DNA from: Gemmatimonadales bacterium | GTDB lineage: Bacteria > Gemmatimonadota > Gemmatimonadetes > Gemmatimonadales > GWC2-71-9 | Direction of reading: 5' to 3' | Assembly (NCBI GenBank): GCA_019637315.1 | Contig: JAHBVU010000001.1 | Coordinates: 124,001-188,000 of the forward strand | DNA: 64,000 nt | Part shown: piece after piece, positions 6,520-48,131 of the stretch | Position numbering within the stretch: position 1 is the first letter of the stretch | Layout: each line of letters begins with the position of its first letter | Notes under the pieces: model-generated | Databases searched by the model: none | Seen by the model: only the letters and a program-made list of their open reading frames with translations | Told to the model about the DNA's origin: nothing | Translations under genes and position numbers: made by a program

Positions 6520-6618
6520 GGCCAGGGTCCTCGAGAAGGCAAACAATGGAGCAGGTTAATCCGAGCTACCGGCTCTGTCGACTCCGGGCCGGCGTCGGGT
6601 CCCACTCCCCTTGAAACT

Positions 6619-6645
6619 CTAGGGAACTGCTGTACGTTTCCCTAG
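6619..6645. promoter_or_regulatory. Inverted repeat, probable PadR operator overlapping promoter 1
   Basis: CTAGGGAA (6619-6626) and TTCCCTAG (6638-6645) form a perfect 8-bp inverted repeat with an 11-base spacer, 19 bases before the PadR start. A candidate -35 (TTGAAA, 6611-6616) lies just upstream, and a weak -10-like TACGTT (6633-6638) falls inside the repeat. A further CATAGGGAG at 6651-6659 carries a partial half-site and also supplies the ribosome-binding site. Autorepression through a palindrome over the promoter is the usual PadR mode; binding here is inferred. Confidence 0.6.
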
Positions 6646-6664
6646 AATACCATAGGGAGCATCG

Positions 6665-16842: not shown

Positions 16843-16911
16843 CAACTCCCCTTGCTTACCGAGATGAGTGATCGTAGCTTGAGTCATCATCTCGGTTACC
16901 GTGGGGAGTTG
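16843..16911. promoter_or_regulatory. Nested inverted repeats over promoter 2 and the PadR2 ribosome-binding site
   Basis: The outer repeat is CAACTCCCC (16843-16851) with GGGGAGTTG (16903-16911). Its right arm contains the ribosome-binding site one base before the PadR ATG. The inner repeat is ACCGAGATGA (16858-16867) with TCATCTCGGT (16887-16896), 19 bases apart. A weak promoter, TTGCTT (16852) and TAGCTT (16875), lies inside. The inner repeat is a likely PadR operator; the outer one could hide the ribosome-binding site in an RNA stem. Confidence 0.6.
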
Positions 16912-45250: not shown

Positions 45251-45272
45251 CCGACGGGCATGGTACCACCGG

Positions 45273-45306
45273 CGGGGCGGCGCTCAGTGCCGCCCCGTTT
45301 CGTTTC
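45273..45306 (+). terminator. Rho-independent terminator of the desaturase gene
   Basis: CGGGGCGGC (45273-45281) pairs perfectly with GCCGCCCCG (45289-45297) around seven bases, followed by TTTCGTTTC. Confidence 0.85.
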
Positions 45307-45370
45307 TATGGGTCTGGCGCTACGTTGGCGCGACGGGTTGGCTCCCACATCGAGCGAAGGTGATCGAGAT

Positions 45371-46813
45371 ATGCGAGATCTGAACGGTCGGCTGATTGCC
45401 ATTTTGACCCTGGCAGCGGCGGCCCCAGCCGCCGCCCAAAGCACCGCCCAGCAACTCACTGAAGCCCAGCGGGCCTTCATCGCCGTCGATGCGCCTGCGG
45501 TCGCGCTGACGCGGGTTCGGGTGGTGGATGGAACCGGGGCCCCGGCCCGAGAGGATCAGACGATCCTGGTGGCGGGTGGGAAGATCAGCTGGGTCGGGCC
45601 CGCCAGTGCCGCCAAGATTCCGGCGGGTGCTCGCGTCATCGAGCTCGCCGGGCACACGGTGATTCCCGGCATGGTCGGGCTCCACAATCATACGTTCTAC
45701 TACACGGCGGCCCCGCGCGCGGCACAGGCCAACTACACCGCGCCGCTGCTGTACCTGGGATCGGGCGTCACCACCATTCGGACGACTGGCAGTACTTCGC
45801 CCTACGCCGAGCTCAATCTCAAGGCCAACATCGATCGCGGCATTCAGGTCGGACCCCGGGTGTTCGTGGCCGGTCCCTACCTGATGGGGCCCGGCCCGGA
45901 TATGCGCCTCAACCTGCTCGGCATGCACGAACTCAAGAACCCGGACGCTGCCCGGAAGACGGTGGACTACTGGGCCGAGGAGGGCGTAACCTGGCTCAAG
46001 GTGTACACGCAGATCGATCGGGCGACGTTAGGCGCAGTGGTTGACCAGGCGCACAAGCGTGGTATCAAGGTGACCGGCCATCTCTGCTCGGTCGGCTACC
46101 AGGAGGCCGTGGGGCTCGGCATCGATGCTCTCGAGCACGGCATGCTGGCCAATTCGGAGTACTACGCCGGGAAGCAGCCCGATGTCTGCCCGGCCGGTTT
46201 CCGGGATGGCTTTGCCAGCATCGATATCGCGAGTGATCCGCGAGTTCAGAAGACCATCCAGATGATGCTCGACCGGAAGGTTGCTCTGACCTCGACGCTG
46301 GCCGTGTATGAGGCAGGGTCGCCCGGTCGCTGGTTCCTCGACCCAAGGCTCTGGGACGTGCTGTCCGCCGACGCGCGCGCCGAGGAGGAACAACGCCGCG
46401 ATGCGATGGCGACCGTGACGAGCCGGTCCGCCTTTGCTGCGGTGCAGAAGAGCATGGAGTTCGAGGTGGCCTTCTTCCGGGCCGGTGGCGTGCTCGCCGC
46501 CGGAGTCGATCCGGCGTTCAACACCCCGGCCGGTTTGGGGGATCATCGAAACTACGAGTTGCTGCGGGAGGCGGGTCTGACCGGACCGGAAGCGGTGCAG
46601 GTCATGACGCTGAACGGCGCCAAGGTCCTGGGGATCGACGGCGAAACCGGCTCGATCGCGGTCGGCAAAGCTGCGGACCTGGCAGTCATCCGCGGTAATC
46701 CGCTGGCCACGCCGAGTGAGATTCGGAACGTGACGCTCGTCTTCCGAAATGGAATCGGCTACGACAGCGGCAAGATGCTGGCGGCGGTCAAGGGGCTGGT
46801 TGGGCTCCGTTAG
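45371..46813 (+). CDS. Exported amidohydrolase-family protein
   Basis: A 480-aa protein; ATG 45371 gives a signal peptide ending A-A-A-Q. The metal site has H-N-H in V-G-L-H-N-H-T-F near 110. A later V-K-V-Y (Lys) and G-H-L-C and L-E-H-G supply ligands, with A-A-G-V-D-P near 378 as the Asp region. The C-terminus has I-A-V-G-K-A-A-D-L-A-V-I, the classical amidohydrolase finish. It resembles imidazolonepropionase/prolidase-like secreted members; the substrate is unknown. The gene is bounded by the terminator at 45273 and by the long inverted repeat at 46840. Confidence 0.9.
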   Translation: MRDLNGRLIAILTLAAAAPAAAQSTAQQLTEAQRAFIAVDAPAVALTRVRVVDGTGAPAREDQTILVAGGKISWVGPASAAKIPAGARVIELAGHTVIPGMVGLHNHTFYYTAAPRAAQANYTAPLLYLGSGVTTIRTTGSTSPYAELNLKANIDRGIQVGPRVFVAGPYLMGPGPDMRLNLLGMHELKNPDAARKTVDYWAEEGVTWLKVYTQIDRATLGAVVDQAHKRGIKVTGHLCSVGYQEAVGLGIDALEHGMLANSEYYAGKQPDVCPAGFRDGFASIDIASDPRVQKTIQMMLDRKVALTSTLAVYEAGSPGRWFLDPRLWDVLSADARAEEEQRRDAMATVTSRSAFAAVQKSMEFEVAFFRAGGVLAAGVDPAFNTPAGLGDHRNYELLREAGLTGPEAVQVMTLNGAKVLGIDGETGSIAVGKAADLAVIRGNPLATPSEIRNVTLVFRNGIGYDSGKMLAAVKGLVGLR

Positions 46814-46839
46814 GTCGTTCTTGGCGGGGCGGTCAGTCC

Positions 46840-46963
46840 GATCGGAGGCGGGGGGTCGCGCGGGCGGCGCCGCCGGCGCGGCCGGCAAACGGCGATGATC
46901 GCATGGCGGGGGCGCCGACTGACGCGCTGGCGGCGCCGCCCGCGCGACACCCCGCCTCCGATC
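46840..46963. repeat. 35-bp near-perfect inverted repeat with 54-base spacer
   Basis: The arms are 46840-46874 and 46929-46963, both beginning at the outer end with GATCGGAGGCGGGG, and differ at one position (G versus T at arm base 15). The arms are very GC-rich and share the core GGGCGGCGCCGCC. The element fills most of the gap between two same-strand genes. A cruciform or very stable RNA stem is possible. It ends 28 bases before the downstream start. Confidence 0.85.
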
Positions 46964-46991
46964 ACGAAGTTTCCGGCTGGAACAGCCTGAG

Positions 46992-48131
46992 ATGTCCGTG
47001 ACCGTCGGGGCACTGGTGGTTACGCACGTCGGACTCGAGCCCGTGCTCGTTGCCGAGCTGGCGGAGCTCGGGCTCGTGGGCGAAGTGATTTCGGGCGGAG
47101 TCGAGCTCCAGGCCAGCCTGCTCGACGTGGCCCGGGCCAACCTGATGCTGCGCACCGCCGGCCGGGTTCTGGTCCGAGTCGCCAGTTTCCGCGCGCGCAC
47201 CTTTCCGGAACTGGAACGGCATGCTGCCAAGCTGCCGTGGACTCGCTTCCTGCCGCCCGGCATGCCGGTGCACTTCCGCGTTACCGCCAAGAAATCCCGG
47301 CTGTCGCACGAGCGGGCCATCGCCGAACGGCTGGGGCGCGCCTTGCAAACGGCAGCACCGAAGGCCACCGTCGTTGCGGGCCGCGCCGAGGCTGATGCGG
47401 ACGACGACATTCAGCGGTTCGTGGTGCGATTCCATCGTGACGTCTGCACAGTCAGCGCTGACAGCTCAGGCGCGCCCCTCCATCGCCGCGGCTACCGCCT
47501 CGACACCGGCAAGGCGCCGCTCCGGGAAACGCTCGCGGCGGGTTTGCTGCTCAGCTCGGGTTGGGATGGTACCACGCCGCTCGTCGACCCCTTCTGTGGT
47601 TCGGGCGTGATTCCGATCGAGGCGGCGACCCTCGCACGCCGGATCCCGCCCGGCCGGAATCGCCACTTCGCGATCGAGCGATGGCCCGGCTTCGACGCCA
47701 CGGCCTTCCAGGCCGTGCGGGCCGCGGCTGATCTCGCCTCGCTGCCTGCCTCGCCAGTACCGATCCTGGGCGGCGATCGCGATGCGGGCGCGGTGCGGTC
47801 CGCCGCCGCCAATGCCGAGCGAGCGGGCGTCTCGGCCGACGTCCCCTGGCAACACCAGCCTCTGTCCGCCACGGTCCTCGATGGGCCGCCCGGCGCGATC
47901 GTCACCAATCCTCCCTATGGCGCCCGAATCGGGGAGCGCGCCTCGCTGCGCGACCTGTATGCGCAGCTTGGCAATGTCCTGCGCCGCCAGGGCGCCGGCT
48001 GGACGGTGACGATCGTGTCGGCCGACCGCGAGCTGGACGGGCAGGTTGGCCTGCCATGGACGGAGCTGATCCGAACCGAGAACGGGGGCCTTCCGGTGCG
48101 CTTCATTCGCGCGGAGCTGCCGGCCGCGTGA
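46992..48131 (+). CDS. RlmL-like THUMP-domain RNA methyltransferase
   Basis: A 379-aa protein. The N-terminal ~160 residues form the ferredoxin-like plus THUMP region (T-H-V-G-L-E-P-V-L-V-A-E-L, then H-F-R-V-T-A-K-K-S-R-L). The catalytic Rossmann domain has D-P-F-C-G-S-G-V-I-P-I-E-A-A near 197 and the base-binding N-P-P-Y-G near 303. These define the UPF0020/RlmL class, which makes N2-methylguanosine in 23S rRNA or tRNA. The E. coli RlmKL C-terminal RlmK half is absent. Its stop overlaps the hrpB start (GTGA). Confidence 0.9.
   Translation: MSVTVGALVVTHVGLEPVLVAELAELGLVGEVISGGVELQASLLDVARANLMLRTAGRVLVRVASFRARTFPELERHAAKLPWTRFLPPGMPVHFRVTAKKSRLSHERAIAERLGRALQTAAPKATVVAGRAEADADDDIQRFVVRFHRDVCTVSADSSGAPLHRRGYRLDTGKAPLRETLAAGLLLSSGWDGTTPLVDPFCGSGVIPIEAATLARRIPPGRNRHFAIERWPGFDATAFQAVRAAADLASLPASPVPILGGDRDAGAVRSAAANAERAGVSADVPWQHQPLSATVLDGPPGAIVTNPPYGARIGERASLRDLYAQLGNVLRRQGAGWTVTIVSADRELDGQVGLPWTELIRTENGGLPVRFIRAELPAA

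Follow-up and report, generated by a model that had tools for sequence, protein, structure and literature searches.

A long GC-rich inverted repeat at positions 46840–46963 of the window, the whole 64,000-nt stretch of DNA analysed here, raises the question of what it is: a REP-like or small non-autonomous mobile element, an unusual terminator, or a stable RNA structure behind a gene. The best reading of our results is that it is one member of a low-copy, species-restricted, REP-like family of 3′-end hairpins.

Among the inverted repeats listed for the window, this one is the longest; others were found at 16843–16911 and 6605–6659, with arms of 25 and 22 nt that are 84% and 77% complementary, respectively. 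As the earlier note had it, the repeat lies between two genes of the same (+) strand. An amidohydrolase-family gene (45260–46813) ends with its stop codon 26 nt before the 5′ arm, the element being sense to it, and an RlmL-like methyltransferase gene (46992–48131) starts 28 nt past the 3′ arm. The 35-nt arms described previously, with one mismatch and a spacing of 54 nt, are real and form the outer part of a 41-nt stem. Its G-rich 5′ arm (46880 being the last position, from 46840; + strand; GC 0.90, 24 G vs 13 C) and its C-rich 3′ arm (46923–46963, + strand) are 95% complementary across the 42 nt between them, with one G.A mismatch and one G-U wobble. Folded as RNA, region 46810–46995 reached −139 kcal/mol (z −9.4), whereas 200 dinucleotide shuffles averaged −97.0 ± 4.5. 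The DNA fold of the element also beat its shuffles (z −10.2).

The host genome, a 3.91-Mb draft in 36 contigs (95% complete), carries six copies of the element, each 122–136 nt long, at C1:170840 (the window copy), C1:229610, C4:162058, C4:180144, C4:180340 and C4:240319 (contig and position). A genome search with the window element returned four further sites, which match its inner part and not its arms. A search with the core consensus confirmed five copies and gave nothing else with a stem. The sixth, more diverged copy, C4:162058, was found by an unbiased inverted-repeat scan of 464 kb, in which only family copies and the cross-pairing of a facing pair on C4 appeared besides it. Two more scans, one of 400,000 bases and one of 767,051 bases that includes small overlaps, yielded no new copies. 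In the 1.63 Mb of 3.91 Mb scanned, inverted repeats not belonging to the family reached at most 19 bp. The same six were recovered with a covariance model (R1) which, like the covariation count given below, omits the window copy, whose core lacks about 10 nt; the window copy was retrieved weakly (E 0.63). The case of no extra copies, considered in the earlier note, is thus excluded by five further copies in the host genome, whereas the arm BLAST proposed there would have missed the family, since the arms have no third copy and only the core is common. Since rings are shared between copies, we infer for the six a single ancestral element, which multiplied in this genome.

In the orientation of the core, every copy is composed of a G-rich 5′ arm, the core and a C-rich 3′ arm. 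The conserved module of the better copies consists of a 5′ half, TGGCGC-NGC-NGTCGC, and a 3′ half, GCGACY-GAN-GCGCTGGC, which form two short helices with internal loops between them. The apical part is variable and, in the C4:162058 copy, unrelated. Part of the core is kept in the window copy at 46894–46934 (+ strand, 88% to the core consensus), about 10 nt of its 5′ half being degenerate or lost. Between the inner stem ends lie 67, 67, 67, 66, 64 and 42 nt, the last in the window copy, for which the value is 54 nt if its stem is taken as 35 nt. The most diverged ring among five compared is that of C1:229610 (23–25 of 36). The facing pair (180a and 180b; C4:180144–180461), whose members are 69 bp apart, has rings identical at 37/37 positions and apical parts matching at 26/35, whereas the stems, which agree at 14/28 (shuffle p 0.70), are unrelated.

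Placement is also conserved. Five of the six copies are sense and lie 5, 12, 13, 19 and 26 nt past a stop codon, into which no stem of the six copies runs. By chance this would be expected with a probability of 0.053 per copy and 2e-6 for at least five of six, values that rest, as do the flank and gene-end-hairpin statistics below, on crude gene calls from simple long ORFs. Two of the genes preceding the five sense copies encode M14 peptidases; the others encode an S9 peptidase, an amidohydrolase and a CarboxypepD_reg/Plug protein. Only C4:180144 departs from this placement, being antisense and facing the copy behind an M14 gene. That place and orientation relative to the stop codon are so constant argues for an RNA role at the message 3′ end. 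The earlier suggestion of a stable 3′ RNA structure therefore fits in part, for the five copies that stand in sense just behind a stop.

On their contigs, the five sense copies are oriented with the strand that GC skew shows to be richer in G. Separately, two CTGTTTCACGTGAAACAG-like sequences 63 bp apart were observed at C1:8392–8488, near a change in the sign of GC skew (first vs second 40 kb of C1). We take this pair to be parS-like, and together with the sign change it suggests that a replication origin may be near.

No copy with a stem was found by BLAST in 60 other genomes, which gave three weak matches, all stemless. With the covariance model the host genome alone was positive of 102 genomes of the family, 288 of the order and 395 of the phylum, in searches that scored 11 to 150 of the thousands of first-look candidates per genome and can therefore miss diverged copies. 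Similarly, a ring pattern run on the 395 genomes matched in the host genome only (4 matches), and a reversed control pattern matched once in another genome. Conservation in related species, which the earlier note had proposed to look for, was thus not found by any of the three approaches. Two same-genus genomes (200 kb scanned each) did not carry the element; these relatives are distant, their RlmL-like protein being 57–60% identical, and so give no empty-site comparison. Viral contigs gave 0 matches with either pattern and plasmids and phages no match. Pattern matches in Planctomycetota, Flexivirga and Microbacterium were rejected, as they had no stem; the pattern used there covered the apical part, later seen to be variable, so that this search bears on that part and not on the ring. 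Rfam returned no family for the window copy, the only one submitted (MIR918 at 31.5 bits, with a gathering score of 268). No such family was found described in the titles or abstract beginnings of the literature, which is no proof of its absence from print.

Passages of PMC3733652 describe REP elements as small palindromes that are probably transcribed and most of which follow coding regions. With REPs and REPINs our element shares the intergenic position, mostly behind coding regions (5/6 copies) and, with REP dimers, the arrangement seen at C4:180144 and C4:180340, two copies that face one another across 69 bp. However, REPs and REPINs are present in many copies of 20–40 nt, compared to six of 122–136 nt here, and it is their palindrome sequence which is common to the copies, whereas here the stem is private to each copy and the internal-loop module is common. 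They carry a GTAG or CGTC tag at one foot of the hairpin, while none was recognised here by eye at the outer edges, and they go with a Y1 transposase gene flanked by repeats, while no linked Y1 transposase was found here. The single Y1_Tnp gene of the host genome (C6:16386–16742) lies in a locus without ring motif or long inverted repeats. A short GC-rich hairpin adjoins this gene and does not carry the element's motif.

MITEs, for their part, have terminal inverted repeats common to their copies. These are absent here, five arms having no third copy and the 180a and 180b stems agreeing at 14/28 positions. MITEs also have a target-site duplication. The earlier note had recommended looking for one; none was seen by eye, with no abutting direct repeat of at least 2 bases at the outer edges of the six stems. 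Membership of the REP or MITE classes was thus rejected, on the grounds of a palindrome sequence that is not common, a low copy number and the lack of a linked transposase. The element resembles REP in place and probably in effect. The REP-like or small non-autonomous element proposed from the sequence holds for the existence of several copies, six in all, and not for the arms, which are not scattered as identical sequences, only the core being common.

Two other folded or copied elements were compared. Integron attC sites are folded sites behind genes, with paired boxes, unpaired spacers and a variable terminal part, features which our element shares. Their R boxes (RYYYAAC / GTTRRRY) stand at the ends, and they are served by an integron integrase. 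Here, in contrast, the conserved boxes are inside a long private stem, and instead of forming cassette arrays the copies are tens of kb apart, the facing pair excepted. A retron or another reverse-transcribed element needs a reverse transcriptase, and none (PF00078) was found in the host genome, 95% complete, in a search where 3/14 control genomes were positive.

How, then, do different stems come to surround a common core? The stems measure 41 bp in the window copy and 36, 32, 30, 28 and 34 bp in the others, and of their 201 pairs 197 are Watson-Crick, three G-U and one a G.A mismatch. All six have a GC of 0.77–0.89 and a G-skew of 0.26–0.66, with the G-rich arm always 5′. As the antisense copy shares this bias, it follows the element and not the locus. 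In register, the stems of the window copy and of C1:229610 agree at 22/27 positions and are set apart by one single and five double changes. Their likeness is of marginal significance: the Markov test gives p 0.005, or about 0.075 once 15 pairs are allowed for, and the in-register shuffle gives p 0.0012. Other low in-register shuffle values were obtained for the window copy with C4:162058 (0.008) and C4:240319 (0.015) and for C4:162058 with 180a (0.023), the remaining 11/15 stem pairs giving p >0.1.

Private near-perfect stems on a common core suggest that one side of the stem serves as the template from which the other is rewritten. We therefore favour, with slightly less than even confidence, a low-copy family of 3′-end hairpins whose stem is kept by template switching and which has an RNA role at gene ends. 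The stem would be kept as pairing and not as sequence: template switching would copy one arm onto the other, double changes would arise at once and few mismatches would be seen. Template switching is described in passages of PMC8794818 as creating and maintaining RNA hairpin stems. Perfect stems and double changes of several bases, as expected where one arm is the template of the other, are common to the hairpins treated there and to ours; that work concerns RNA genes and ancestral histories, whereas here the process would act on copies scattered over a bacterial genome and built around a conserved core. Judged from its position, the hairpin would be transcribed at the mRNA end of mostly peptidase and hydrolase genes, where it may cap or punctuate the transcript, either as a shield against 3′ exonucleases or as a terminator that needs no T tract. 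Recognition would fall to the internal-loop module, and a protein-binding site is a further possible role.

Rewriting within each copy is favoured by the G- and GC-rich composition which follows element orientation, by the lack of armless cores and by the residual similarity of two stems. Several observations count against it. The similarity between the window-copy and C1:229610 stems is marginal; most other stem pairs show no homology, implying a loss faster than rings identical at 37/37 positions suggest; C4:180144 does not follow a stop codon in sense orientation; and no mobile helper was found.

Unrelated stems in copies with identical rings favour, on the contrary, a fresh stem per landing site. 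In this case, which we consider possible although doubtful, a mobile hairpin would write its own stem: only the core of about 70 nt would move, landing behind genes in fixed orientation, its self-pairing ends would fold back and a polymerase would copy the local flank. The private stem of 28–41 bp would then be the inverted landing site and not be inherited from the parent. The near-perfect pairing agrees with such a process, and five stems searched had no third copy in the host genome (the C4:162058 arm, found later, was outside this search). Quasi-palindrome extension by template switching is moreover reported, in passages of PMC3820800, for transcribed yeast DNA. Nevertheless, the arms could not be traced to their 0.3- or 3-kb flanks, where own-flank scores were not raised except for the C4:240319 arm, whose match about 0.9 kb from its own element, the best partial one obtained (17/18 bases; E 0.33 for a longer stretch), is not above noise. 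Composition also differs, since 150 gene 3′ flanks have a GC of 0.65 ± 0.09 and a skew of 0.03, and only 0.7% of them reach both stem values. In addition, the antisense copy is G-rich in the orientation of the core and not of the gene, no armless or one-armed core was found in the host genome by core-consensus and covariance-model searches, and stems stop short of the stop codon in every case. As the stems are unlike ordinary local flank, the reading in which the element copies its landing site is weakened.

Rather improbable, in our view, is a structured cis-regulatory or 3′-UTR-derived RNA family whose basal stem undergoes stepwise compensatory change under selection for pairing. Covariation is consistent with it, as it is with the favoured reading: in the core plus 9 bp of stem of five copies, 8/26 pairs were changed on both sides, a count that 0/500 shuffles reached. 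Consistent with it, too, are the sense placement, the three transition-type departures, all of which are G-U on the sense strand, and the better folding of the sense strand in 6/6 copies, which have related cores and are not independent. However, intermediates amount to only 4/201 pairs although the stems are nearly unrelated, and slow stepwise drift is hard to reconcile with stems from which intermediates are nearly missing. Furthermore, where the stems of the window copy and C1:229610 can be compared, four of their five double changes cannot go via G-U, and the window copy matched no Rfam family.

It is very unlikely that the arms are the stems of older intrinsic terminators whose loops received the core. 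With intrinsic terminators the element shares a GC-rich sense hairpin 5–26 nt past a stop, and ordinary gene-end hairpins of this genome (58 behind 1036 stops) are likewise GC-rich (0.78, which the GC of the six stems resembles), and their 5′ arm is slightly richer in G than in C (skew 0.12). Their stems, however, do not exceed 17 bp behind the 1036 stops, or 19 bp in the 1.63 Mb scanned, compared to 28–41 bp here, in line with the earlier remark that the repeat is too long for an ordinary terminator. Intrinsic terminators also have a short loop and a T tract, whereas here 42–67 nt with a structured core separate the arms and no T tract follows any of the six stems, the window copy included, as had been noted for it. 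The element was thus rejected as a terminator on loop and T tract. For comparison, the window holds a textbook intrinsic terminator at 45271–45299 (13 pairs, loop of 3, T-rich tail), about 20 nt behind a fatty-acid desaturase gene; the gene that comes next is the one followed by the element.

Chance duplication or an assembly artefact, for which one could invoke the draft state of the genome (36 contigs) and the inverted chimeras that occur in sequencing libraries, is refuted by six loci with related, non-identical cores and consistent placement, and we give it next to no credit.

One genome here offers six natural replicates, in which a common core is combined with different near-perfect stems. 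Creation or rewriting of stems by template switching thereby becomes testable by comparison of strains, which bears on how RNA stems of such length come about and keep their perfect pairing. The family also illustrates that repeat searches based on arm sequence miss families whose conservation lies inside the hairpin.
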